Assembly (NCBI GenBank): GCA_027491115.1
Contig: JAIXWV010000030.1
Span: forward strand, 1 to 64,000
Origin: Pseudomonadota bacterium
GTDB lineage: Bacteria > Bdellovibrionota > UBA1018 > CAIMNF01
Length of the DNA: 64,000 nt
Direction: 5' to 3'
Below are positions 13,824-45,421 of the stretch, one piece after another. Numbering within the stretch: position 1 is the first letter of the stretch; the number at the start of each line of letters is the position of its first letter. A program made the position numbers and the translations under genes. The notes under the pieces are model-generated. The model was not told the origin of the DNA. It saw nothing but the letters and a program-made list of their open reading frames with translations, and searched no databases.

Positions 13824-15506
13824 TCAGATCCTGAGGTCGGTGACTTTGGCGGGCAACACTCCCTTTCTCGCCTGGTACCAATAACGGTTTCTCAGGATCG
13901 AGCTCACGTATTCCCGGGTCTCGCGATAAGGAATGGATTCGATGAACTGGATCATGCTCCAATCCGGTTTCATTTCTTTTTTCCACTTGGCCACGCGGTG
14001 CGGACCCGCATTGTAGGCAGCAAGGGCATAGGGGAGATTTCCTGAATACTTCTCGAGTAAGGATTGAAGGTACTTTGTCCCGATGCCGATATTCGTGACC
14101 GGATCCCTCAACTTGCCGAGCATCAGGTCTTTCTTCACATCCAATGCCGTGAAGGGCATCAATTGCATCAGGCCGAGCGCACCGGAGATCGATATTGCCC
14201 CGGCTTTGAATCCTGATTCTTGCTTGATCAGACTGGTGATGGTCAACGGGTCGATTCCCGCTCTCTCTGACTCGGCCACAATCTCCTTTTGAAACCGATC
14301 AGGAAAGATGAGCTCAAGCACCGGTGTGGTCAGCATGCCGTCGTACTTCCTCTGCATCAGCTCGTTGGCAACCTTGAATACGGTTAGATTCTGATCGGCC
14401 AGACTTCCTAGGCGCATCAGAACCAAAAGAAAGTGTGTTGAATAATTCCGGAGCCGGGTCAGCGAGTCGAGCTCGATCCCGACTTCTTCCATCTGCTTCC
14501 TGCCCAACAATGCTTTGGCCCGGTCGAGAGTCCGGGATTCATAGGGCCCGAGGCCCAGGTGCTCCAGATCGACATCGGGAGAGTGGTTGACCACTGCGTC
14601 CTTCAGGGACACACCGATCCGCTCGGAGGCCACCACTGCATAATAACTGAGTGGAATCTGCTCGATGATCGTCCGGTAAATCGGCGCTGCTTCTTTTTCG
14701 CGTCGGTTTCGGTGATGAGCTTCGGCCATCATGAATTGAGCCCGGAACCGGTGATAGGAGCGTGGGTAATCCGCGATGAACTGTTTGGCGGACTTCATGA
14801 GGTCGGAATCACGACCCGCAAGGAAATCATCCAAAACCACCAGGAAGGCATCTTCGTCCTTCTCGTATTTTTCAGAGTAAGTCTGGGAGACCCGCTCCCC
14901 GGTGACCTCGGCGCTTGAAGCACTCTCCGGGCCGGGAAGGTCCTTGAGTGGCTTCATCTCGTTTGAGGCTTTCGGAAATACCTCCATCAGACGTTTGGCC
15001 AAAAGAAGACACTCTTCATCCCGGATCTTTTTCTTGCCGGTCACGCAAATCGAAGCCAAAGCGTGGGATGCATCCAGGTTCCAATAAAGCACCCACTTGA
15101 AGGTACCCAGACCGTTCAAGCCACGGTGAAACGCGGAAAGAGCCTTTTTCCGACTCCCTTGCTTGGCGAGCAAGGTCCCCCGACGCAACTCCAGGATGTG
15201 AAAGTGGTCCTCGAGCTCCTTCAGAAGGTTTCGACTTTCGGCATCACGGGGTGCGAGTAACAGATCCTGACCCACCCGATCGAGCGTCCCCAGGGAAGAT
15301 CGACCCTCGACCAAGGACTTCGCTTTCAAAAAGGGGCCGTACTCGGGTGGCAGCGGGAGACGGTCCCACCGTTCTAGTACCTTCTTGTCCCCCTTTCCCT
15401 TGACCAGAAACAAATCGGGCAAGGGGGTCGCGGAGGCCTCCTGCAGAAGGCAAATGCAAGCAGCCAAAATCATGAAAATGCGCGTTTTCTCCGCAATTTG
15501 GGGCAT
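13824..15506 (-). CDS. Soluble lytic murein transglycosylase (SLT-like) with TPR-like N-terminus
   Basis: ITSLIKQESGFKAGAISISGALGLMQLMPFTA ... YLQSLLEKYSGNLPYALAAYNAGPHRV. Confidence 0.9.
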   Translation of the reverse strand: MPQIAEKTRIFMILAACICLLQEASATPLPDLFLVKGKGDKKVLERWDRLPLPPEYGPFLKAKSLVEGRSSLGTLDRVGQDLLLAPRDAESRNLLKELEDHFHILELRRGTLLAKQGSRKKALSAFHRGLNGLGTFKWVLYWNLDASHALASICVTGKKKIRDEECLLLAKRLMEVFPKASNEMKPLKDLPGPESASSAEVTGERVSQTYSEKYEKDEDAFLVVLDDFLAGRDSDLMKSAKQFIADYPRSYHRFRAQFMMAEAHHRNRREKEAAPIYRTIIEQIPLSYYAVVASERIGVSLKDAVVNHSPDVDLEHLGLGPYESRTLDRAKALLGRKQMEEVGIELDSLTRLRNYSTHFLLVLMRLGSLADQNLTVFKVANELMQRKYDGMLTTPVLELIFPDRFQKEIVAESERAGIDPLTITSLIKQESGFKAGAISISGALGLMQLMPFTALDVKKDLMLGKLRDPVTNIGIGTKYLQSLLEKYSGNLPYALAAYNAGPHRVAKWKKEMKPDWSMIQFIESIPYRETREYVSSILRNRYWYQARKGVLPAKVTDLRI

Positions 15507-15558
15507 GAAATTTAGTATAGACAACGAAAACCTTTTCCGTTAACTAAATTAGTACGTT

Positions 15559-15633
15559 TCAGGAGTAGCTCAGTGGTAGAGCAATCGGCTGTTAACCGAT
15601 TGGTCGGGGGTTCGAATCCCTCCTCCTGAGCCA
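15559..15633 (+). tRNA. tRNA-Asn (anticodon GUU), encoded CCA
   Basis: TCAGGAG/CTCCTGA acceptor, anticodon loop CTGTTAA, GGTTCGAATCC T-arm, CCA. Confidence 0.95.
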
Positions 15634-15692: not shown

Positions 15693-15751
15693 GAACCCCG
15701 ATTCAAGAGAGATTGCCTTAACCGCATTACAATTGAGTCGGGGTTTTTTTA
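15693..15751 (+). terminator. Rho-independent-like terminator downstream of tRNA-Asn
   Basis: aaccccgattcaa ... ttgagtcggggttttttt inverted repeat followed by a T tract. Confidence 0.6.
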
Positions 15752-15912
15752 TACGGACTCAGGGTCGACTTGAAATCGACGCGCTTCGATGCGCGCAGCT
15801 GTTCCTGGTAAACCTTTTTTCCATCCACAATGAGGCCGACTCCGAAGGCCAAGAAAAAGATGGAAGTGAAAAGACTCATTTTCTCAATCGATCCGAGGAC
15901 TTTCATCCGCAA
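15727..15912 (-). CDS. Small (up to 61 aa) single-TM membrane protein downstream of motB
   Basis: MSLFTSIFFLAFGVGLIVDGKKVYQEQL; one hydrophobic helix, basic C-terminus; same strand, 61 bp after motB. Confidence 0.5.
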   Translation of the reverse strand: MRMKVLGSIEKMSLFTSIFFLAFGVGLIVDGKKVYQEQLRASKRVDFKSTLSPYKKTPTQL

Positions 15913-15973
15913 ACTCCTTGTACAAATTCTCCCACACCCGCGTGTCGTACTGGTCGGAAATGATTGCCGGCCC

Positions 15974-16750
15974 TCAAGGTGCCCCCTGGGTACCGGCGGT
16001 TTTCAGGTTCCACGGAATGCTGTCCACCTCAGGCAAGAGGACCCGGAGTACCACCCGCCTGTTTTTTGCTAGAGCCTCTTCATTCCATGATCCGTCCGGA
16101 TTCCTGCTTTCCGCCACTGGCTGAGTGTCGGCGTAACCAATCGCCAAAAGATTGGCGGGACGAAACCCCTCCTCGATGAACATCCGGATCACACGCGTGG
16201 CCCGAGCACTCGAGAGTTCCCAATTGGAAGGAAAGGGTCCACCCAAGACGGGCTGATGGTCGGTATGCCCCTCCACGACAAATTTGTATTCCTTCCCGAG
16301 TTGCTTCTGCTTCTCGAGGATCGCGAGGAGGATCCGATCGAGAATCAACTTACCCTCGGATGAGACTTCGGCACTCATGCTTCCAAACAACAAGGTGGAA
16401 TGAAAGGCCAGGCTCACACTCACCCCGTCACTGGTGATGGTGACATCCTTCGCGATGCCGTTCTCCTGGATAATCTGGGACACGAACTTGCCTAGATCCT
16501 CCGTCGGAGACTCGTACCGGGTACCGAAGTGCTCCGCGACTTCCTTTTTGACCTTCTCGAACTCCGGGGTGTTCACCTTGGACATGCTGAAGAGCATGAT
16601 GTAAAAAACGCAAAGCAGGGTCATCATGTCCGCATAGCTGATCAACCAGTTGGACTCGTCGTGCTCTTTCGAAAAACCTCGCTTACGCGGTTTTTGATGA
16701 GCCACCTCCGTTTGCTGATGCGCCCTTTCGAGCTTTCTGATGACCGCCAT
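15974..16750 (-). CDS. motB: Flagellar-type stator protein MotB/PomB family
   Basis: SNWLISYADMMTLLCVFYIMLFSMS (ion-binding Asp), OmpA-like VEGHTDHQPV ... SNWELSSARATRV. Confidence 0.92.
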   Translation of the reverse strand: MAVIRKLERAHQQTEVAHQKPRKRGFSKEHDESNWLISYADMMTLLCVFYIMLFSMSKVNTPEFEKVKKEVAEHFGTRYESPTEDLGKFVSQIIQENGIAKDVTITSDGVSVSLAFHSTLLFGSMSAEVSSEGKLILDRILLAILEKQKQLGKEYKFVVEGHTDHQPVLGGPFPSNWELSSARATRVIRMFIEEGFRPANLLAIGYADTQPVAESRNPDGSWNEEALAKNRRVVLRVLLPEVDSIPWNLKTAGTQGAP

Positions 16751-16757
16751 ACCGCCC

Positions 16758-17540
16758 TCAGGCCACTTTCCTTCTCACCCGATCGCGGGGAAGAAGGTAG
16801 GAATTGAGGCTCTCCCGCATGTACACAGGGTTCACACGCTGCTTGAGCAACACCGCCCCTTCAATGATCATCTTCCGGAGAGCGATCTCCTCTTCCGTCT
16901 TTTCAGCTAATGCTTCTGCAATGGGTAAGAATACCAGATTCGCGAGAGCGATCCCATAGAGGGTCCCCACGAGTCCGATGGACATTGCCGGGCCGATGAG
17001 TTTTTCAGCACCCGGTTTACCGATCTGCTGCAGGAGCGCGATCATACCGAGCGTGGTCGCCAATAGGCCGAACGCCGGAGGATACTTCCCGATCGCCTTG
17101 AACATGTTGGCCTCGTGCATGTAGTGGTGTTCGATCGTCGTCAGACGCTGTTCAAGTACGTTGCGGACCTCGCGCTCGGAGAGCACGCCGTCCGTTACCA
17201 GGGTCACAGCTTCCTTCAGGAACTCATTCTTCAAATTAGATACTGCGTCCTGGGTTCCGATCAATCCAAGAGACAGCTTCTTGTTCAGGTCGAGCATCTG
17301 CTCGATGGTGCCCTGGTAATCGATCCTGTTCCTTCCCAAGAGCCGGAGGAAGAACACCTGGAACAGCATGAACAACTTCCCGAGAGGGAAGCTGATTGCT
17401 GCGGCAGCAAGGGTGCCACCCCCCACGATCACGATCCCGTGGAAGTTGAGAAAGAATGACATGTCCATTTTGGTTTCATGGAGTGCCGCCACCATGACCG
17501 CGAACCCGACAATGACGCCGAACAAAGATGAGATGTTCAT
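16758..17540 (-). CDS. motA: Flagellar-type stator protein MotA/PomA family
   Basis: FHGIVIVGGGTLAAAAISFP, YPPAFGLLATTLGMIALLQQIG..AEKLIGPAMSIGLVGTLYGIALANLVFLPIAEAL. Confidence 0.92.
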   Translation of the reverse strand: MNISSLFGVIVGFAVMVAALHETKMDMSFFLNFHGIVIVGGGTLAAAAISFPLGKLFMLFQVFFLRLLGRNRIDYQGTIEQMLDLNKKLSLGLIGTQDAVSNLKNEFLKEAVTLVTDGVLSEREVRNVLEQRLTTIEHHYMHEANMFKAIGKYPPAFGLLATTLGMIALLQQIGKPGAEKLIGPAMSIGLVGTLYGIALANLVFLPIAEALAEKTEEEIALRKMIIEGAVLLKQRVNPVYMRESLNSYLLPRDRVRRKVA

Positions 17541-17542
17541 GA

Positions 17543-19807
17543 TCAGCCGTACCTCCTGAGGTCGGTAGAAGTGACTTCACGCTGGTCGTACCCGAACTGC
17601 TCCGCGAAGATCCGGTCGTTCACGTCGGACAGGTTGATCTGTCCGCTGTTCGACATGGTTTTGATCCGGTTCAACACCTTCCGCTCAACCACGGCGAACA
17701 CCTCACGACTGACCGGTTCGGCGATGATCAGCTCTTCACTGAGGTCGTCCGAGAGATCGCGTGGAACCTTGTTCAACACGGAGTTCCGGATCTCGTCGTT
17801 GCACCCCTTGAGGAACTGGACCAACTCGTCGTGCTTGACCGAGGTGATCACCTCGGTGAGGACGACGTCCTTCAGGTAACGCAAGGTTTCCACCGAGACC
17901 AGCTTGGACTTCAAGCTGTGCAAGGCCTCGCCACCCGAAGTAGCCATGAGCTGCTGGATGATGTTCCGTTGCGCGTCCATAGAAGACCGTTCAAGGAACG
18001 ACACCAGGACATCGGTTCCCGGCAAGGCCTCGGTATTGAGCTTCGGGTTCTCGAGTTTTTTACGACGCAAAGCCGAAGCCACGTTGTGGATGTAGTTCTT
18101 CGGGAGATGGTCGATCCGGGAGAGCTCAGCCATCAACTTGAGCTGGGTCGGCTCATCGTAGCTCTGGAACAGGACCTGTCTCCGCTTGGAGTCGCACTGG
18201 GTGAGAACGATCGCTTTCACGGTGTTCGATTCGTTCTTGATCATCTCGAACATCTGCGGAGCGTCCATTTCAGCAAGGAAGTCGAACAATACAGCGGAAC
18301 GGCTTCCATGAACCTGCATCTTGGCAGTCACCGTACGATGGTGGAGCTTTTTCAGGAGCCCCAGTCGCTCGTCGTCGTTGATGTCGAAGGTGTTGCGAGC
18401 ATAAAAATCCATCAGCTCGGTGAGGTCCGACTGCAGACCCGGATCCCGAAGGAGATCCATCACAACGCTCTCGCCGAAAATTTCCAAATACTGGGCTGTG
18501 GTTTCCACTCCCTCCTCGGTCAGGACATGTGTGAAGACATGCTTGGCAACCTTGGGCTGCTCCGAATAAATTGCCGTCAACTCGTCATGCAAGCGGGAGG
18601 CCTCGATGCGCTTCCCGATCAGGGTGGCCTTTTCATCGTTGGTCAGGCTCAGATTGTCCGGAGCAGCCGCGGCGGTCTTACCGTCACGGTTCGATTCCTT
18701 GCCACCCTCTTGCCCTTTACCGCCATCGAAGACCTGCCTGCGGAAGCTGATCGCCACCAGAGTGAAGAGAAGGGCGAGGATGATAGAAGACAGGATGATC
18801 CCGTAGAGCTTGAATTTGTCGAGGACCGCTTGAACCGCGTCCCCGTTTTCTACCCGCTCGATTTTTTCGTAGTGCTCAACGCGCTCCTTGCGGACGTCGC
18901 TCGACTCGCTCTGCTGGCTGGTCGTTTCTTTGTGACTCCTGCTCTCGGTGGAGTCTTTGAGTTCCTTCGACTCGCGCGTCTCGCGGGAGTCGCGTGCCTC
19001 TTTCAGCTCTTTTTCTTCCTTGCTCGCGGGACTCCGGCCCTGAGTCCAGGGCACCTGGCCGGCGACCATCGTCTGGAGGTTCTTAGGAAAACGCATGCTT
19101 TGGGCGAGCACTTCCGAGTTCCTGTAGGGCGAAACTTTCAATTTCACCATCTCGACCATGCCGGCCGCCTCTTCGGAGGGAAGGGCCTGGTCCGTCATCA
19201 CTACGGCCTTGACCCCTTTGACCCGGATCGCAGCGGGACCATCCTGGAAATACTCCTGGCTGGCAGCATAGTCCACATCCTCGGGATTGACCGCCTCGGT
19301 CTGGACATCGAATTCTCCGAGAACACAGTGCTCGGCACAGAACTGGGTCAACATCCCCTGGATGGACGCCCGGATGTCACGAACCACGCGCGCGCGCAAC
19401 TCGGCCACACGGTAGGTGGAGCTTGCGGGCTGAGGAAACCGGGTGATCCTTGGCTCGACCTGGACCGGGAAGTCCAGTTGATCGAGATGCTCCTTGAAGA
19501 GCGAAAGAATCTTGTTACGGGTTTGTGAACCGAGATTTTCGTCGACGAGCATTTTGACCCGGGCTGCAGCCGGAGCAAGAGTGGCGCGTCCACCGTCCTC
19601 GAAGCCGGGCGCAGTGAGGTCGTCCACCGCGAGATCCACCTCGGTGTCGACATGGATGATCTGGCACTGTTCGCGACAGTACTGATTGACGAGGGGCTCG
19701 AGCACCTGACGGACCTGTTGCTCGCCCCGCTTTTTCACATCAAGTGTGCTCGGACCCGCAGCCAATGCGGTTCCGACCAACAAAGGAATGAATGTGAAGA
19801 TCATCAT
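17543..19807 (-). CDS. Membrane-anchored protein with duplicated periplasmic modules, TM helix and FliG C-terminal-like domain
   Basis: Signal peptide MMIFTFIPLLVGTALAA; duplicated CxxxC modules; TM GIILSSIILALLFTLVAI; FliG-C-like DELVQFLKGCNDEIRNSVLNKVPRDLSDDLSEELI. Confidence 0.75.
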   Translation of the reverse strand: MMIFTFIPLLVGTALAAGPSTLDVKKRGEQQVRQVLEPLVNQYCREQCQIIHVDTEVDLAVDDLTAPGFEDGGRATLAPAAARVKMLVDENLGSQTRNKILSLFKEHLDQLDFPVQVEPRITRFPQPASSTYRVAELRARVVRDIRASIQGMLTQFCAEHCVLGEFDVQTEAVNPEDVDYAASQEYFQDGPAAIRVKGVKAVVMTDQALPSEEAAGMVEMVKLKVSPYRNSEVLAQSMRFPKNLQTMVAGQVPWTQGRSPASKEEKELKEARDSRETRESKELKDSTESRSHKETTSQQSESSDVRKERVEHYEKIERVENGDAVQAVLDKFKLYGIILSSIILALLFTLVAISFRRQVFDGGKGQEGGKESNRDGKTAAAAPDNLSLTNDEKATLIGKRIEASRLHDELTAIYSEQPKVAKHVFTHVLTEEGVETTAQYLEIFGESVVMDLLRDPGLQSDLTELMDFYARNTFDINDDERLGLLKKLHHRTVTAKMQVHGSRSAVLFDFLAEMDAPQMFEMIKNESNTVKAIVLTQCDSKRRQVLFQSYDEPTQLKLMAELSRIDHLPKNYIHNVASALRRKKLENPKLNTEALPGTDVLVSFLERSSMDAQRNIIQQLMATSGGEALHSLKSKLVSVETLRYLKDVVLTEVITSVKHDELVQFLKGCNDEIRNSVLNKVPRDLSDDLSEELIIAEPVSREVFAVVERKVLNRIKTMSNSGQINLSDVNDRIFAEQFGYDQREVTSTDLRRYG

Positions 19808-19811
19808 GACA

Positions 19812-20525
19812 TCACCTCTTCTGAGACGCGACATTACGCTGCGTCTCCCTGCGTTCCACAACTTTCCGGAGCGCGACCTTGCCCGGTTCGAATTCAAGGG
19901 CCTGCTTCCAGGACCGCAACGCCAGATCCGGGTAACCGATCCGGTCGAGAACGGTACCCCTCATTTCATAAAGTCGGGCATTGGTCGGATACTGCTTGAT
20001 CAGAGAATCGATCTCCATGAGTGCGGCTTCGTGTCGCCCACCATTGAACAGCTGTTTGATGAAATCGACTTTGCCGAGGTAGCTCTCATCCATCACCGGC
20101 AAATCGTCTGAAGGCTGGAGTCCGAGGCCGCTCTCGATTTCCCTTCGGCGGGCTCCGGCAACCGGGTCTTCGTGATCCGTGAAGGTGGAGGCGATCTCGC
20201 GATCGGCCATCCCGGGCTTCTGCCTCAAATAGCGATCATCCGGTCCGAGTCCGGTGTTCGATTCGCGTGGGGCTTCGGCCAGTTTCGGATTCATGGGGAC
20301 CTGGAATTCGGCTGTCGGATCTTGCGGGATCTCGATCTCCATCTGTTTGTCGCCCTTCTTCGAGCGGAACGTGATGGACTTCCCGGAGTCGGGGGCGACC
20401 GCTCCGTATTGGGAGAATGGATTCTCGATATAGAGCGGTTCACCGCTCGCGGTGACCTGGGCGGCTTTCCCGCCAGAGGTGGCGCATCCCGACAAGACGG
20501 TCATGACTCCGACCAGCGCGAACAT
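19812..20525 (-). CDS. Lipoprotein with TPR-like C-terminus
   Basis: MFALVGVMTVLSGC lipobox; FIKQLFNGGRHEAALMEIDSLIKQYPTNARLYEMRGTVLDRIGYPDLALRSWKQALEFEPG. Confidence 0.75.
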   Translation of the reverse strand: MFALVGVMTVLSGCATSGGKAAQVTASGEPLYIENPFSQYGAVAPDSGKSITFRSKKGDKQMEIEIPQDPTAEFQVPMNPKLAEAPRESNTGLGPDDRYLRQKPGMADREIASTFTDHEDPVAGARRREIESGLGLQPSDDLPVMDESYLGKVDFIKQLFNGGRHEAALMEIDSLIKQYPTNARLYEMRGTVLDRIGYPDLALRSWKQALEFEPGKVALRKVVERRETQRNVASQKR

Positions 20526-20544
20526 CACAGACTGAGAAGATGAT

Positions 20545-21672
20545 TTAGAAGATGTAGCCGACACCGATTCCCCCTTCCACACCCGAGACCGAGGCGGTCT
20601 GAGTGGTGGTGATCACGAGCGTCCCCTTGGGGCGATAACCCAAGAATCCCGAGATCGTCCAATGTTTCGCCATCCGCCATTCGTAAGTGCCCCTCAAGAG
20701 CCCTCCGAGAAATCCAGCGGCATAAGTACCTCCGATTCCACCGATGATGATGGAGCGGGCCTTGTTGAAATTTTCCTCAGGGCCGAACAGTGCCCAACCG
20801 TGCTGGAACAACAACGTAAAGTTGAAACTGTTGTAAAGGTTGGTCGAATCGGTGCTGGCTGTGCTGAGTCCGGTCAAGAGATTCACATCGGCATAGTAAT
20901 TGGCTTCGAACCCTACCTCTTTTTGGCGATTGTCATAGCGCTCCATCATCCGGATACCGAACCCGAGTGCGGTCGAGTAACCACTTGTCGCCTTGGGCGC
21001 CATCACCGTGTACAGAACCGGGCGGATCTGCATGGTCGACTGGTACTCCATCCGGGTCTTGGCTTCTTCGAGCTCCTGGAAATCGACACCCCGTCTTTGG
21101 GCGGAGGCACGCGTGTTTTCAGAATTGTAGTTCCGGGTCCACAGGGTGGTTCCAGCCTCCACATCCGAAATCTGGAAGGACAGGATCATCCCCGTCGGCT
21201 GATAAGCAAAGGCCACATCCATGAAATTCTGGACACCGTTCATCCGCGCGATACGCTGGAGCTCGGCCGAGTTGGTTTCAGCTGAGGAGATCACCATGGT
21301 CTCGCCGTTCAACTTGGCGGTCTTGGAGCGACAAGCCAGGCAATGCACGACTCTGGATTTTGTGACTTTCAGAATGCGCTCTGTGATCAGCAGTTCGAGG
21401 TGTGACTTGAACGACGGTGGAATGTTTTCGCTGGTGACGAGGTTTCGGATCGACAGATCCTTCATTCCGATGACTTGCCCGCTCTTGAGATCGTACTCAA
21501 AGTCACCCAACACCTCGTCGAGTACCTGGTAAAAGTTTCTCGATCCGGACGGAGCTTCCGGTGCGGACTGTGCGACAGCCGGAGATGAACGGAGCAACAG
21601 CACCGCAAAACAGGCGATCATGGCCTGTTTCAGGAAGCGGGATTCGATCGTGCGTGCGAAGAGTGTCCTCAT
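20545..21672 (-). CDS. Predicted outer-membrane protein: CsgG/FlgO-like periplasmic N-terminus plus C-terminal beta-barrel
   Basis: Signal peptide AVAQ; VVHCLACRSKTAKLNGETMVISS and DVEAGTTLWTRNYNSE; glycine/aromatic-rich C-terminus ending YIF. Confidence 0.55.
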   Translation of the reverse strand: MRTLFARTIESRFLKQAMIACFAVLLLRSSPAVAQSAPEAPSGSRNFYQVLDEVLGDFEYDLKSGQVIGMKDLSIRNLVTSENIPPSFKSHLELLITERILKVTKSRVVHCLACRSKTAKLNGETMVISSAETNSAELQRIARMNGVQNFMDVAFAYQPTGMILSFQISDVEAGTTLWTRNYNSENTRASAQRRGVDFQELEEAKTRMEYQSTMQIRPVLYTVMAPKATSGYSTALGFGIRMMERYDNRQKEVGFEANYYADVNLLTGLSTASTDSTNLYNSFNFTLLFQHGWALFGPEENFNKARSIIIGGIGGTYAAGFLGGLLRGTYEWRMAKHWTISGFLGYRPKGTLVITTTQTASVSGVEGGIGVGYIF

Positions 21673-21712
21673 CTCAGTGTCTCTTCGGACAGCCCCCCCC
21701 AATCCTTGAAAC

Positions 21713-21739
21713 TAAAGTTTTACAGATTTTTGACGATAG
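21713..21739 (+). promoter_or_regulatory. Putative FliA (sigma-28)-like promoter
   Basis: TAAA-N15-GACGATAG versus consensus TAAA-N15-GCCGATAA, followed by a short leader and GGAGGAG RBS. Confidence 0.45.
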
Positions 21740-21760
21740 GGAATTGACGGAGGAGTGTCC

Positions 21761-22504
21761 ATGAAACGGGTCCTGCACCCATTGATTGCCGGGGTATTGA
21801 CGGTTTTCACCGCATCTTGTGCCACCACACAGGTGCTGAAGACTCCCGCCCCCTTACCCGAACTTCCGGCCTACTCCCGAGTGCCTCACCCCAACGGGTT
21901 TGATCTGGCGGATCTGAAAGCCATTTTTTTCCATCCCACCGCTCCGACAGCCGTGCGCGAGTCCTTCGCCGATCAGTGCGATTCCGATTTCCGAAAGCTC
22001 GCAGGTGCCACTCCGCTCAAGTTTGAACGCTCCACCGGCGCCCTGGAACTGGTCAGTGCCAAACCTGAAGACATGCACTGGTGTTTCTATTCCAAGATCC
22101 TGAAGCTGCAGGAGTTGCTCCAGAGTGATTCGACCTGGACCGAGCGCCAGAATCGGGTAATCGAAACATTTGAGTTCCTCGCTCCTGTTGCGAATGCCTT
22201 TCTCGACCACTACCACGATTCAAGGTACCTGCGTTGGGCAAGCCAGTACTATTCCAAGATCTCGGAATGGGTGTTCTTCAGGAAGGTCAATCCGACACCC
22301 GAGAACACCTTGCTCTTGACCGCAGGAACCCGGACTTCGATCGAGCCCTGGGTCGCCCCGGCCTCAGGATCAAAAGAACCGTCTGTATTCGCGAAGTACG
22401 GACTTTCGCTCATGCCCTCCGTTGCCGGAGCTCCCAACCCTCTCGAATCCGCACCTCGGGCTCCTGCCTCTGTGGAAGAAGCCGAAGACCACAAAGAAGA
22501 TTGA
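21761..22504 (+). CDS. Hypothetical lipoprotein, divergent from motor-like operon
   Basis: MKRVLHPLIAGVLTVFTASC lipobox; RBS ggaggag. Confidence 0.65.
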   Translation: MKRVLHPLIAGVLTVFTASCATTQVLKTPAPLPELPAYSRVPHPNGFDLADLKAIFFHPTAPTAVRESFADQCDSDFRKLAGATPLKFERSTGALELVSAKPEDMHWCFYSKILKLQELLQSDSTWTERQNRVIETFEFLAPVANAFLDHYHDSRYLRWASQYYSKISEWVFFRKVNPTPENTLLLTAGTRTSIEPWVAPASGSKEPSVFAKYGLSLMPSVAGAPNPLESAPRAPASVEEAEDHKED

Positions 22505-27257: not shown

Positions 27258-28394
27258 TCAAGGATACTGAAGCTTTCGGAACTCCTCAAGGGTAATCCCC
27301 GCGATCCGGACAGGATAGTGTGCAGGGATTTCAGCCTCGTTTTTCCAGATCGGATCCCGGAAGTGCGGGTTGAGTCGCTTGAGGGTCTCCTGATCCAGGC
27401 GATAGTGTGCAACGATCCTGCCGATTTTCAGATTTTTCGGAAAAGCCAGACTGAGATACGGAGGAAGGCCATCCTCATCCTGCCTCTGCCGCTCCTCATG
27501 CACATCACACATGGCCAAAAACTCAAAAAGGTAATTGCGGGATGCGAACTTGAAAGAGGGCTCCTTGAAGATCCGGATGATCTTCACCGGATCATCCGTT
27601 CCGAGTGTTTTCACCGCCTTTTTCACCAGGGACGGCCCGTGGTGGTACGCCATGACAGCCAAGGCCCAACTTCCCAACAACTGATGATTGCGACGCAAGA
27701 ACCGGGCAGCCGCACGGGTGGACTTCAAGGGATCGAAACGCTCATCGATCGAGTGTCCGACCCTGAGATCTCGGGCGGCTGTCTGCGGCATGAACTGCCA
27801 GATGCCGACAGCACCCGCCTTGGACTTGGCCTCTTGATTGAAAGCACTCTCCACAAAGGGGAGCAGTACCAACTCTTCGGGAACCCCCTCCTCGCGAAAC
27901 ATCTCTCGCATGCGCTTCAAGTAAGGGCGGGACTCACCGAACGCGGCTTCGACCCGATCCTTCCGACCCGACTGGATGCGAAGTCGGCGATCTTCGGCTG
28001 CGAAGGCATAGGCGCGAGGATCTTCTATGGCATCCATCGCCTCAAACACCGGCCTGAGTTTTGGATCGAGACGGCTCACGGACACTTTTCCAGACGGAGC
28101 CCTGGAGAGCGCGCTCAAAGCGATCCGTACCTCACCCCGACCGCGCCTGGCGTCGGACTCAGTCCGATGCCTGGAGTAGATTCGTGCGGGATTCATCGAG
28201 TCATGCACCAACCAGTCGGAGGACTCAAACTCAGTATAAACCCGCTTCCAGAAGCGAATCTGTGCTTCGGACCAGGAATCAAGTGTGACTCCCAACTTTT
28301 GAAATCGCCGTTCATGGGTTAGGATCTCGTTTGCCCGGACAGAGGCGGGATCAAGGATGAGAACACACGTGGCGACCAGAATCATCTTTGTCAT
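27258..28394 (-). CDS. Membrane-bound lytic transglycosylase (MltD-like) with C-terminal LysM-like segment
   Basis: VLLPFVESAFNQEAKSKAGAVGIWQFMPQTARDL-type SLT motif, AVMAYHHGP; signal peptide. Confidence 0.85.
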   Translation of the reverse strand: MTKMILVATCVLILDPASVRANEILTHERRFQKLGVTLDSWSEAQIRFWKRVYTEFESSDWLVHDSMNPARIYSRHRTESDARRGRGEVRIALSALSRAPSGKVSVSRLDPKLRPVFEAMDAIEDPRAYAFAAEDRRLRIQSGRKDRVEAAFGESRPYLKRMREMFREEGVPEELVLLPFVESAFNQEAKSKAGAVGIWQFMPQTAARDLRVGHSIDERFDPLKSTRAAARFLRRNHQLLGSWALAVMAYHHGPSLVKKAVKTLGTDDPVKIIRIFKEPSFKFASRNYLFEFLAMCDVHEERQRQDEDGLPPYLSLAFPKNLKIGRIVAHYRLDQETLKRLNPHFRDPIWKNEAEIPAHYPVRIAGITLEEFRKLQYP

Positions 28395-29418
28395 CACTTT
28401 TGCTGCAATCACCCTTGCTCTAGTCACCACATTCCTCCTGAATCAGAGTACGGCAAATCCCGGGATACGGATACTGATCGACCGTCCTCCGAACACCCTC
28501 GAAGCCGGTCAAAATCCTGACGTGATGGCGAGAAAGATCCTTCCTCTCATGGAAGCGGGTTACCGGGTCGCAACACCGTTCGATCCCGAGGACTTCAAAC
28601 TCCTCCCTCCTTTAGCCGACCGCCCCGTTCTTCACTTCCGCACCGTCAGGGACGAGCTCGCACGTGGGATCCTGTTCGAGAAGGGCGAGGTCGACGTTCT
28701 GTTCAACAGCCTTTCCCTTTCAAAGACCCGATGGTTTCAGAAACAAGGGGCCTCCCTGGTTGAGGCTCCAGGGCACCACCTTTCGTTCATTGGATTCAAT
28801 TTGCGCGACCCGGCACTTTCCGACCCGAATCTCCGCAGGGCCATCTTGCACGCACTGCCCCTCGATCAATGGGTCCACAACAAATTTTTCGACATGGTGA
28901 CACCACTCCCGGTTCTTGCGGATTCATTCCGGCCTGAAGCCGCGCGATCCCTCATTGGGTCGCGTGGACCAATTAAGTTACGCTTTTTGACCACTCCGGT
29001 CCGCGAGGGCAACGAGCTGGCCTTGCTCGTCCGCGAAGCCCTGGGCAAGGTGGGAATCGAAGTGGAAGTGGTTCCACTCGAGTCCTCCTTGTTTTTTCAG
29101 CGCCTGAAGCGTGGGGACTTCCAGATCTTCGGATCTCGCTTGCTTCGCGAGACCGAGAACGATTCCATCTCAGACTACCTTCTGCCCGGGAAGAACAAGA
29201 ATTACTTTTCCTGGAGTCCGGATCGAACTTTGGCCGACAAAAATGGGAATCTCAGCTGGGCCGCGGCCGAGAAGCGGGTGCTGGAGGAACTACCCCTCAT
29301 TCCGCTCTTCACTTGGAAGCACGGACTCCTGCTGTCCAACCGCATTCGTAAGTCCACCCCTCCGCCCCGGATCGAAGAGGATTCCTTTCGCTTTTTGTCC
29401 ACCCTTCAGCTAGATTGA
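28357..29418 (+). CDS. ABC transporter substrate-binding protein (SBP_bac_5-like), short
   Basis: N-terminal TM/signal; FNLRDPALSDPNLRRAILHALPLDQWVHNKFF ... FDMVTPLP; VREALGKVGIEVEVVPLESSLFFQRLKRGDFQIF. Confidence 0.75.
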   Translation: MRTHVATRIIFVITFAAITLALVTTFLLNQSTANPGIRILIDRPPNTLEAGQNPDVMARKILPLMEAGYRVATPFDPEDFKLLPPLADRPVLHFRTVRDELARGILFEKGEVDVLFNSLSLSKTRWFQKQGASLVEAPGHHLSFIGFNLRDPALSDPNLRRAILHALPLDQWVHNKFFDMVTPLPVLADSFRPEAARSLIGSRGPIKLRFLTTPVREGNELALLVREALGKVGIEVEVVPLESSLFFQRLKRGDFQIFGSRLLRETENDSISDYLLPGKNKNYFSWSPDRTLADKNGNLSWAAAEKRVLEELPLIPLFTWKHGLLLSNRIRKSTPPPRIEEDSFRFLSTLQLD

Positions 29419-41591: not shown

Positions 41592-43127
41592 TCAGGACCG
41601 ACAGAGCTTGAGGATCCGATGGAGCGAGGGGTCGGAAACGGGGAGGCCCCGCATGAGGAACTCTCGGATCGGGAACTTGACCCGCTTTCTGAGTCTCACC
41701 CAGTCCAAGCACCGTAGGTTGGTTCCGGGCTGGGGCGCATCTTCATCCAGGATCAATGTGCCCCCTGAGCGCAAATGTCGCTCCGCATCGGCGCCGGTTC
41801 GGAGTACCAATAATCGCTTTCCGGTAGCCGCCGAGATCATCCCCACTTCGTGCCAGATGTCCTCTTTAGGCATCACGTAGGCGAAAGTGCTCTCGGGCCA
41901 AAGCCCGATCGCATTCTTTAAGCCCGCGAGGTCGCCCTCTCCGATACCCACTGCAGCCACGCGGATCAGGCTGACCATCGCAACCGAAGTCAATGCCACC
42001 CCTCTCAATGATCCTCGGAAGTGGGCCAGTGCCCAACAAGGCACCAATGCCAGGAATCCAGCCGCGAGTGTCCATTCGATCCACCCACCGGTGACCATTC
42101 TCAATACGAAAAACAAGAGACCGCCCCCAACACCCGTCGCAAGCCATCCCGATATCCGGGCTCGTCGGACCAATCCCGCCTCCGCAGAGACCATCATCCA
42201 TACCACCGCCGGGGTGAGGAGGTAGAGATACGTGTTTACCCGATATGGAAATAACGTGAAGAATACCGCCGGAATCACGGCATAGGAGAGCCACCGCACG
42301 CGATGAGCCTTCCATGCCTGTGTGAACTCAGGGGTGGTAAATATTGCGGTCATTGCGATCAGGATAGGAAATAGGGTTCCGATGAATTCTCCCCACAATC
42401 CCCAGGGCGTTCCATGTGCGGTAGAAACCTTGCCCAGGTTCTCACGCAAAAAGAACATGTCCATCATCTCGCGGTAGTGCGTTCTGGCCGCAAGCAGGTA
42501 CCAAGCCAGCCCGATGCACATTCCGCCGACCAGCCCGATCCAGAATCGCCCCCTGCGAACGAGCTGACCCAGTTCTTTTTTCAGCACTGCCTCGAAACCA
42601 ATCGATAGGACCCAAAGGACCGGATACAGGGGGCCCTTGATCCAACTCATCATTCCAGTCACGGCGAATGCGGACCAAGTACGCCCTTCCCACCAAAGGT
42701 GCCAAGCCCAGCAATAAAACAGCACCACCCAGATCTCCATTTGGGCGGTGGTTCCATAGGTCATGCTAGCCAGCGTGCCGGCAAAAAGCAGTCCTGCGAT
42801 GGCACTTTCTTTTTTTGTGATCCGGTCGACCACGTCTGCCGCGCCGATGAGGGCCAGAACCGAGGGGAGCAGGGCTCCCCACAAACCAAACCCGAACACA
42901 GCCCATCCAATCCTCGTGGCCCAGTACTGGAGTGGCGGCTTCAGGAAGTTCGGTTCACCGAAAAGAGTCGGAATCATCCATTCTCCGCGCTCTTTCATTT
43001 CGAGTGCGATGGTGAGGTAGGTTTTTTGATCTCCGGTCAAGGGCACACTCAGGCCCCAGAGTCCGAGCGCATAGCAGACAAAGAGAATCACCCAAGCCCG
43101 ACGCCTGAGCGAAATCCGGCCGATCAT
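41592..43127 (-). CDS. ArnT/PMT_2-type membrane glycosyltransferase
   Basis: LSVPLTGDQKTYLTIALEMKERGEWMIPTLFGEPNFLKPPLQYW; many TM helices. Confidence 0.8.
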   Translation of the reverse strand: MIGRISLRRRAWVILFVCYALGLWGLSVPLTGDQKTYLTIALEMKERGEWMIPTLFGEPNFLKPPLQYWATRIGWAVFGFGLWGALLPSVLALIGAADVVDRITKKESAIAGLLFAGTLASMTYGTTAQMEIWVVLFYCWAWHLWWEGRTWSAFAVTGMMSWIKGPLYPVLWVLSIGFEAVLKKELGQLVRRGRFWIGLVGGMCIGLAWYLLAARTHYREMMDMFFLRENLGKVSTAHGTPWGLWGEFIGTLFPILIAMTAIFTTPEFTQAWKAHRVRWLSYAVIPAVFFTLFPYRVNTYLYLLTPAVVWMMVSAEAGLVRRARISGWLATGVGGGLLFFVLRMVTGGWIEWTLAAGFLALVPCWALAHFRGSLRGVALTSVAMVSLIRVAAVGIGEGDLAGLKNAIGLWPESTFAYVMPKEDIWHEVGMISAATGKRLLVLRTGADAERHLRSGGTLILDEDAPQPGTNLRCLDWVRLRKRVKFPIREFLMRGLPVSDPSLHRILKLCRS

Positions 43128-45421
43128 AGCGGATAATCCACAGGATCCGGTGAGTTTGGACCACCACTCAGTGACTGTCCGAAGCAGTAGAGACTAGGAT
43201 CGTCCACGGAAGTCACGCAGGTATGGTGGTCACCCGTGGTAACCCTTGAGACCTTCCGAAGTCGATCGCCCTTGAGCGTGATCAGCACCGGATCGGGACT
43301 CTCAGCAGGCTGCTTTTGGCCGAATTGAAAAGATTCGTTCTTTCCCCAGCAGTACAGTTGGCCCACGTCCGTCACCGCACAGAGATGTCCGGAAGACGAC
43401 GAGAGCATCAAAACACCACGCAACCCACCATTCGCCATCGGCTTCAAGTCGAGGGGCAGATCCGCTCGAGCCTCTACCTGAGAGCACACCACCTCACGCT
43501 CGGTTCCACGAATTCCACAAACCCGGTCGTCCGTGAGCGCAATCTGAATCAACTCCCTGGACGGTCCGCCATTTAAGGTCACGGGTTTGGCATTCTGAGC
43601 GAACTCAAAACGCTCCTGCCCCCAGCACCAGGCGGAGCCCTCCGCTTGCGACAAGGCACAAGCACGCCGTCCTTGTGCACGGACCTGCCAGATATCCTTG
43701 ATCACTTTCCCGCCCGCTTCAGAGACCTTCACCGGAGCCGTCAATTCCGAAAAATCACCGTTCGGGATACAGGTGACCTCCTGACTCGCTCCAATGATGC
43801 ACACTTGTTTGTATCCAACCGTGACTCCGGATACACCTCGAAGAGGCATGTTATTCCGCTTAAGCTCTCCGAGCATGAAGCTGTTCTGAGTGGGGCGCTT
43901 TCCTGTCAGGTCAATTTCTACGCCGCCAAAACATCCGACCCTCTGATCATCCCCGTAGATCAGGCAAGCGCGGGAACCCTGAATGTCTAGTGCGCTGACC
44001 TTGCCGAGGACTGATGCCTCGTTTTGAAGAACCACTCCCGACATCCTCTGCATCCCGAGCTGGCCATAGGTATTCAACCCGAAACAGTAAAGTTTTTCTG
44101 ATTGGTCCTTGATGCATGCATGGTTCCACCCGATTTGCACGTGTGTGACGTTCGCAAGCGCCTCAAGTCCAGAATCAAGCACTCTTGACGGGTAGATCGA
44201 GTACGGCTTTGGGTTTCCGAGAATGCCATGCGCACCATTTCCCCAACAGAACAGCTCATCCCTGACAGAAATGATGCAAGTCCGGTCAGGTCCTGCACGG
44301 ACCTCCTTGACTCCCTTGAGTGTCAGATTGTTTGATCCCAGGGCCACCTGTTCGGTTTCCCCACGGGTCGATGAGCTTCCCAATTGGTTGAATTTGTTAT
44401 CCCCCCAGCAAAACACGGTCCGCTCGTCCCGATGGATCGCACACGCATGTGATTCCCCCACAGCGATCTGATCGATCCTGGAGAGCGCCATCTCTTGCGG
44501 ATAACGGACTTGTACCAGTGACGCCTTGGGCATTCCCTTGACCTGCATGAGAATTCCGAGTTGGCGAAGATCATTCTGTCCCCAACAGAAAACCTGTGCA
44601 CCCTTGGTCAAGGCACATCCGAAGTTTTTGCCCAGGCCGACCTGCCTGATCGACGAAAGATAGCCCACATTATTCGCGTATTCCACGCGCTCTGGAACCC
44701 AGTTCAACTTTCGACTCGCGTTGTAGCGCTCCCCGAAGCAAAAAAGAGTGGAGTCCTCACGCGCCACGAGACAGGTCGACGCCGCCCCCGCTGCAATGTC
44801 CTTGACCCCCGCCATGGGCTTCGGGCTTCGCTCACTCTCCATCACCGAACGGGCGCCGACTCCCCTCTCGGAATTGTTTCCCAGCTGTCCGGAAGTGTTC
44901 TCCCCCCAACACACGGCGCGACCGCTTTTCAGCACTGCACACGCATGCGTGTCTCCTGCACTCAAAGCCTTCACCTCGGTCAGGGGGGCGTTGGAGTTGT
45001 CCATGTCCAGAACAGGAACAGGCTTGATCGTGTTCCCGGAACTTGGATTTCCAAGCTGTCCCTTATCGTTCCGGCCAAAACAAAAGGCCTGTTGATTCTC
45101 CCCGGAGGTGAAGCAAGTGAACTCTTTTCCGGTTGCCAAGAGCTTCACCGGAGTGGTGACCACGGTCGGTCCACCATTAAAGGTCCCGAGAGCGCCCTTT
45201 TCTCCCGATCCGACACAGCGAACGGTTTTGTCGCCGAGAATGGCACAGCTCACGCGGTCTCCCGATTTCATTTCATCAAACTCGAAAGCAGATGTGCTGA
45301 GCGAAGTCGCCTCGGTAAAGAGCAGAGAGACGAAAACCTTCGCCTCACTGCAACCACTTAGGAGCAGGAATGCAATCCAGGACATCTTCCTGAGGGTGTG
45401 AAGTGCCTTTATCTGAACCAT
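43124..45421 (-). CDS. RCC1-repeat lipoprotein, predicted beta-propeller
   Basis: About 14 copies of C-x(8-12)-C[WF]G..(N)..GQLG; lipobox LLLSGC. Confidence 0.85.
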   Translation of the reverse strand: MVQIKALHTLRKMSWIAFLLLSGCSEAKVFVSLLFTEATSLSTSAFEFDEMKSGDRVSCAILGDKTVRCVGSGEKGALGTFNGGPTVVTTPVKLLATGKEFTCFTSGENQQAFCFGRNDKGQLGNPSSGNTIKPVPVLDMDNSNAPLTEVKALSAGDTHACAVLKSGRAVCWGENTSGQLGNNSERGVGARSVMESERSPKPMAGVKDIAAGAASTCLVAREDSTLFCFGERYNASRKLNWVPERVEYANNVGYLSSIRQVGLGKNFGCALTKGAQVFCWGQNDLRQLGILMQVKGMPKASLVQVRYPQEMALSRIDQIAVGESHACAIHRDERTVFCWGDNKFNQLGSSSTRGETEQVALGSNNLTLKGVKEVRAGPDRTCIISVRDELFCWGNGAHGILGNPKPYSIYPSRVLDSGLEALANVTHVQIGWNHACIKDQSEKLYCFGLNTYGQLGMQRMSGVVLQNEASVLGKVSALDIQGSRACLIYGDDQRVGCFGGVEIDLTGKRPTQNSFMLGELKRNNMPLRGVSGVTVGYKQVCIIGASQEVTCIPNGDFSELTAPVKVSEAGGKVIKDIWQVRAQGRRACALSQAEGSAWCWGQERFEFAQNAKPVTLNGGPSRELIQIALTDDRVCGIRGTEREVVCSQVEARADLPLDLKPMANGGLRGVLMLSSSSGHLCAVTDVGQLYCWGKNESFQFGQKQPAESPDPVLITLKGDRLRKVSRVTTGDHHTCVTSVDDPSLYCFGQSLSGGPNSPDPVDYPL

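Follow-up and report, generated by a model that had tools for sequence, protein, structure and literature searches.

A gene cluster carried by a bacterium of the phylum Bdellovibrionota probably encodes a dedicated, non-flagellar ion-driven motor that possesses its own rotor, fused into a single chain, and that reaches the outer membrane. The cluster lies in a stretch of 64,000 nucleotides (GenBank assembly GCA_027491115.1, contig JAIXWV010000030.1, positions 1 to 64,000; hereafter the window) and comprises genes for an outer-membrane protein (OMP), a TPR lipoprotein, a hybrid membrane protein with a FliG-like cytosolic part, the stator subunits MotA and MotB and a small transmembrane (TM) protein. 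FliG-driven rotation has so far been tied to the flagellum; if our reading is right, the conserved stator and rotor set, with its own ring and outer-membrane partners, would mean that the engine of the flagellum can serve, or once served, on its own. Stator and one-piece rotor are encoded in addition to a normal flagellum, and a distant relative in which no flagellar genes were found has kept them; this suggests a second, unrecognised kind of ion-driven motor.

The stator pair

An initial annotation, made from the sequence alone, had called the two stator assignments strong, and both hold up. MotA exceeds the curated Pfam cut-off for MotA_ExbB (3.5e-20) and aligns over its full length with MotA and PomA chains of solved structure (E 1.5e-33 to 2e-27); its best full-length matches are MotA, MotP and PomA rather than the TolQ/ExbB-like A subunits that lack the expanded cytoplasmic torque domain. 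MotB likewise exceeds the curated cut-offs for MotB_plug (1.7e-15) and OmpA (2.2e-12), and its alignment to solved MotB proteins reveals that it retains the region of the channel aspartate as well as the domain that binds peptidoglycan. MotA falls below the NCBIfam equivalog cut-offs of the named MotA, MotP and PomA families. In a MotA tree the modules of the window's kind (type I) form one clade and those of a second kind (type II, described below) another, both apart from flagellar MotA, that of the same genome included, which sits on a separate long branch; bootstrap support is not fully settled and the placement of several long branches is unsure.

A FliG-bearing hybrid with a predicted FliF-like periplasmic half

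The hybrid matches Pfam FliG_C (1.6e-13) and FliG_M (1.1e-7) over the curated cut-offs, and FliG is the only protein that its sequence profiles match. With 52.1 bits on TIGR00207 it stays under the FliG equivalog cut-off of 226.7 bits, and whereas FliG is a separate soluble protein, the hybrid is a predicted membrane protein with a signal peptide and a TM helix. Two predicted periplasmic domains resembling ring-building motifs (RBM; residues 51-152 and 159-268) follow the signal peptide and are succeeded by a disordered, low-complexity linker (273-351), a conserved segment with the TM helix (about 352-389) and the cytosolic FliG M and C domains (about 535-768). An alignment of 21 orthologues reveals an invariant C-x3-C pair in each RBM-like domain and a strongly conserved segment, EKIERVENGDAVQ, ahead of the TM helix. 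In the window's hybrid the C-x3-C pairs occupy residues 74/78 and 187/191, in or beside the first helix of each domain.

The AlphaFold model consists of two tandem helix-strand-strand-helix-strand domains, a long helix (352-389) and a cytosolic part made up of helices. Compared with the PDB by Foldseek, the model retrieves full-length FliG (3hjl, 1.4e-7) and its periplasmic half retrieves FliF rings (7bk0, 1.0e-4; 6scn, 8.5e-4), each with a probability of 1.00. The initial annotation's description of the protein as a FliF/FliG-like hybrid is borne out for FliG by sequence and structure. Its FliF-like label had been a guess from the letters; the Pfam FliF family (YscJ_FliF, PF01514) does not match the hybrid, but structural comparison retrieves FliF for the periplasmic half.

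Residues of the FliG part were compared in E. coli numbering. The type I hybrids keep an acidic pair equivalent to D288/D289 and the K264 position of the torque helix, and the hybrids carry a basic residue one position after R297. The FliM-binding EHPQR motif of the FliG M domain has been lost: in all type I and type II hybrids compared the Glu is kept and HPQ is replaced.

Conservation and joint inheritance

The order OMP, TPR lipoprotein, hybrid, MotA, MotB recurs without exception in the 20 loci examined (in one of them the contig breaks off behind motA) and is conserved across an uncultivated order of Bdellovibrionota. The N-terminal half of the hybrid was found in 40 of 369 genomes of the phylum, all within this one order, of which 55 genomes had been sampled. 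The OMP occurs in 42 genomes of the phylum; the two are found together in 39 and apart in only four, three of which can be explained by a match at a contig end (G049, G034) or by a completeness of 56% (G052), the fourth (G352) being a distant case. Within the order the association is strong (Fisher p 1e-9, not corrected for relatedness), and the parts of the module are gained and lost together. A scan of the genomes of 84,980 species with two conserved peptides, which reaches only fairly close relatives and leaves distant versions in other phyla outside its range, returned 40 loci, mostly in metagenome-assembled genomes (MAGs) of Bdellovibrionales, Oligoflexia or Bacteriovoracaceae.

Evidence for separation from the flagellum

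The genome from which the window derives encodes a canonical FliG (338 residues) and a FliF near other flagellar genes on contig C7, as well as FlhA and a separate, E. coli-like flagellar motAB on contig C43. It holds five MotB genes in all; the MotAB pairs on C26 and C11 have no recognised hybrid beside them. Exactly one FliF gene (PF01514) was found in each of 30 genomes tested, and it was never the hybrid. At the locus itself no rod, hook, export or FliM/FliN genes adjoin the module, and the 30 further open reading frames (ORFs) of the window contain no recognised flagellar family. In at least one genome, G352 (1.8 Mb), the module appears to be independent of flagellar genes: OMP, TPR lipoprotein, MotA, MotB and a FliG hybrid of 545 residues are encoded in a row on a single contig, and the genome gave no match to FliF, canonical FliG or FlhA.

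The separate flagellar genes, the conserved order and G352 together support the proposal of the initial annotation that this is a dedicated motor or force-transducing complex rather than a flagellar stator locus, and its statement that the window holds no other flagellar genes agrees with our searches. The outcomes that it had named as refuting, a genome lacking a separate canonical fliF/fliG, or a hybrid without structural match to FliG/FliF in a gene order that is not conserved, were looked for, and neither applies.

A stand-alone FliG_C protein of 141 residues is also encoded in the window's genome (C18, L056:13347-13772), and similar frames of about 141-160 residues recur in the phylum. 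As no MotAB was recognised in the C18 stretch, we did not retain it as a further module.

A possible mechanism and its alternatives

It is established that MotAB stators work by pushing FliG and that ring-building motifs assemble into rings. In the motor that we envisage, MotA5MotB2 units anchored to the peptidoglycan would admit ions and turn, their cytoplasmic face pushing the FliG-C domains of the hybrid. The hybrid would be MS-ring and rotor in one chain, many copies of which may form an inner-membrane ring via the periplasmic ring-building domains; since it would form its own ring, FliF, FliG, FliM and FliN would not be needed. The TPR lipoprotein and the LpoB/TolB-like outer-membrane barrel may take over torque or a conformational change from its periplasmic part and would pass the motion on to the cell surface. 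Ring assembly, rotation, torque transfer and contact with the outer-membrane proteins are predictions of this model, as is its purpose. We favour the moving of surface proteins, for surface motility or attachment, over envelope upkeep because very large proteins lie near some of the related loci: large surface-type proteins adjoin several hybrids of types II and III, and none of that kind occurs at type I loci.

The most serious competitor, which we nevertheless consider unlikely, is that the module serves the ordinary flagellum as an accessory, MotAB being an alternative stator and the hybrid and outer-membrane proteins an extra ring or scaffold like the T-ring, H-ring or Pfl. Module and flagellar genes do occur in the same genomes: those genomes of the order with a type I module that were tested all have FliF and canonical FliG; yet many flagellated genomes of the order do without the module, among them high-completeness genomes (e.g. 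G002, G011, G030) that lack both hybrid and OMP, and G352 keeps the five genes without a detectable flagellar FliF, FliG or FlhA. The LpoB/TolB-N-like domain of the OMP, of a fold class that occurs also in FlgT and FlgO, would suit a flagellar accessory. A stator, on the other hand, needs no second FliG with a membrane ring domain of its own, and the loss of the FliM-binding motif likewise speaks against the accessory role. The title of a 2011 paper (Morehouse 2011), cited in PMC11323537, attributes a contribution to the single flagellum of Bdellovibrio bacteriovorus to all three of its motAB pairs, and this argues for an accessory function.

Besides these three pairs, several observations weigh against a dedicated motor. 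Around E. coli R90/E98 the MotA residues depart from the canonical pattern, and FliG R281 is not conserved in the hybrids, so that the details of the stator-rotor interface must differ from those of the flagellum. The model of the hybrid has a mean predicted local distance difference test (pLDDT) of 71 and a predicted template-modelling score (pTM) of 0.28, and its domain packing is not reliable. Profile comparison of the type I periplasmic domains with FliF gave no sequence signal, the match being one of predicted structure; the likeness to FliF is therefore a structural one in type I, while in type II it comes from a weak colinear alignment. Finally, G352 is a single case and a MAG that is 89% complete, and because flagellar genes cluster, missing data could partly explain their absence from it.

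Less probable again is an envelope machine of the Tol-Pal/ExbBD type driven by the proton-motive force, with no rotating ring and with the FliG part as a mere adaptor, in which MotAB would energise a conformational change in the periplasm and so act, by way of the LpoB-like OMP, on outer membrane and peptidoglycan. MotA does not fit it well, being MotA/PomA-like over its full length and not TolQ-like, nor do the FliG M and C domains, both of which are kept together with the acidic pair of the torque helix. The OmpA-type peptidoglycan anchor of MotB and the LpoB/TolB-like domain of the OMP are compatible with such a machine. So is a lytic transglycosylase (SLT) gene (13824-15524, minus strand) that lies downstream of the module in the window's genus and the sister genus g2, but it was not found beside the module elsewhere in the order. 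A Zorya-like anti-phage defence with a MotAB-like motor is very improbable and largely refuted: MotB matches the PADLOC ZorB models (1e-17), as any MotB/OmpA protein would be expected to, whereas no ZorA, C, D or E match occurred among the six proteins tested, only MotB hits a defence model, and outer-membrane partners and a FliG rotor stand at the locus in place of cytosolic effectors.

Related modules in Bdellovibrionota

The dedicated motor that we propose for the window has diverged relatives, one of them in the same genome. A type II module on contig C31 (L057, G000:C31, 147-13981) encodes, in order, a protein of 2,678 residues without a Pfam match, a BatA-like TM protein, two RBM-like TM proteins with signal peptides (342 and 628 residues), MotA and MotB; the second RBM-like protein carries FliG M and C. 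The FliG part of the type II hybrid matches that of type I (prob 98.6), and the type II protein shows a weak colinear match to FliF that takes in the last ring-building domain, the TM helix and part of the cytosolic tail (prob 42, E 2.7e-4).

Other families have type II hybrids too, among them members of the genus of G190, a complete genome (C1, L165) in which the hybrid lies at about 2.913-2.915 Mb. A MotAB pair is found nearby at 2.918-2.920 Mb, and between the two are genes for a PEGA/TPR-like lipoprotein and a small outer-membrane-like protein. Judging by position, we identify this MotAB as very probably the motB2-bd3020/motA2-bd3021 pair of the literature; the E. coli-like pair of this genome is its third, located at 3.17 Mb. 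Mutations of fliL or motA yield strains defective in flagellar motility, and FliL-Bd1076 binds MotB3 and not MotB2 (PMC11323537). We found no description of bd3014-bd3019 in the open literature, most subscription papers being beyond our reach. As the organism with this related module is very probably a predator cultured in the laboratory, the motor idea is directly testable.

Family f22 has a diverged module with the type I gene order (L182; its MotB lies on a contig edge), and further diverged modules occur in family f29 (L178) and as types III and IV (L168, L270, L263). The parallel modules elsewhere in the phylum have their own MotAB, TPR lipoprotein and outer-membrane-like protein. We tentatively suggest that Bdellovibrionota may harbour, phylum-wide, envelope-spanning rotary machines that work without flagella and have diverged into four types or more, all of them equipped with a MotAB of their own and a rotor combining ring and FliG; the B. 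bacteriovorus pair listed as the flagellar stator MotAB2 would belong to one of them and might drive gliding, which still lacks an assigned motor.

Comparison with known motors

Like the flagellar motor (FliF, FliG, MotAB), the module has a MotA, a MotB that bears a plug and a peptidoglycan-binding domain, and FliG M and C domains preceded by a TM helix and a predicted FliF-like ring-building fold. Unlike it, the module fuses the FliF-like and FliG parts in one chain without the FliM-binding motif and has a dedicated outer-membrane barrel and TPR lipoprotein, the canonical flagellum being encoded separately. A natural FliF-FliG fusion has been described in Chlamydiaceae, which are not thought to be flagellated (Bergeron 2016, PMC4768692). 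It too unites ring-building periplasmic domains, a TM segment and a FliG-like domain in one protein, but it is of about 330 residues, its reported homology is to the FliG M region, no MotAB or outer-membrane module has been described with it and it has been proposed to act in the injectisome (PMC4768692).

Non-flagellar motors of other kinds are AglRQS and GldLM (PMC12505986, PMC13104615, PMC9389320). The Agl-Glt system of Myxococcus resembles the module in having an ion-driven motor of the MotAB/TolQR class (AglRQS) in an envelope-spanning complex; AglRS is classed with the generic ion transporters (GIT; PMC12505986), and in accounts of the system we found no FliG rotor, in contrast to the module with its MotA/PomA-like MotA and FliG-bearing ring protein. 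The rotary gliding motor of the Bacteroidota, GldLM with the type IX secretion system, is likewise non-flagellar, a 5:2 ion motor that drives surface motion, but it is reported not to be a homologue of MotAB (PMC13104615). In the open papers, with most subscription papers out of reach, we found no account of a non-flagellar FliG-like motor or of a stator operon that includes a FliG-bearing ring protein of its own.

Organisation of the locus and neighbouring genes

The six genes form a minus-strand run with almost no gaps (Table 1), as the initial annotation had described. Measured between longest ORFs, the distances are -38 (OMP/TPR lipoprotein), -86 (TPR lipoprotein/hybrid), +2 (hybrid/MotA), +7 (MotA/MotB) and +67 (MotB/small TM protein), although translation of the OMP, TPR lipoprotein and hybrid genes probably begins somewhat downstream. 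The range originally assigned, 15727-22504, covers this run but also takes in the divergent lipoprotein gene, which is not part of the run.

Table 1. Genes of the module and the adjoining divergent gene (window coordinates)
Feature	Position	Strand	Remarks
OMP: signal peptide, LpoB-C/TolB-N-like periplasmic domain, C-terminal 8-stranded beta-barrel	20545..21702	-	likely start ATG near 21672
TPR lipoprotein, outer-membrane type, C-terminal TPR-like repeats	19812..20582	-	lipobox Cys33; likely start Met20
Hybrid, rotor candidate, 784 residues	17543..19897	-	likely start ATG 19834 or 19807
MotA, PomA/MotP-like stator subunit	16758..17540	-	Pfam; match to solved MotA/PomA
MotB: plug helix, channel Asp (SYADMMTLL), OmpA-type peptidoglycan-binding domain	15974..16750	-	Pfam; alignment
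Small TM protein, 59 residues, one hydrophobic helix, genus-restricted	15727..15906	-	tblastn
Lipoprotein, divergently transcribed, usually adjoins the OMP gene in relatives	21755..22504	+	homologue in 18 of 20 loci

The OMP has no Pfam match. Its model (mean pLDDT 75.5) places eight strands after the LpoB-C/TolB-N-like domain and retrieves LpoB (4q6l, 1.4e-4) and NspA (1p4t, 2.1e-4) as well as OmpA/OmpW in Foldseek. The TPR matches of the lipoprotein are weak; its lipobox cysteine is invariant in 23 sequences. The small TM protein was followed only as far as the genus, where three congeneric loci have it at 54-97% identity. A cyclic-nucleotide-binding protein of about 165 residues (cNMP domain 3.6e-18; e.g. 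L042, L039) is a more general partner, being encoded between hybrid and motA in most of the order and missing at that position from the window and from the other congeneric loci examined; its place in the operon suggests that cyclic nucleotides control the motor.

A second SLT gene (27258-28430, minus) flanks the region on the side opposite to that of the first, and a tRNA-Asn gene (15559-15633, plus; ARAGORN) separates the first from the module. Further along the window, 43124-45421 (minus) encodes a protein of 765 residues that consists largely of RCC1-type repeats (3.6e-86).

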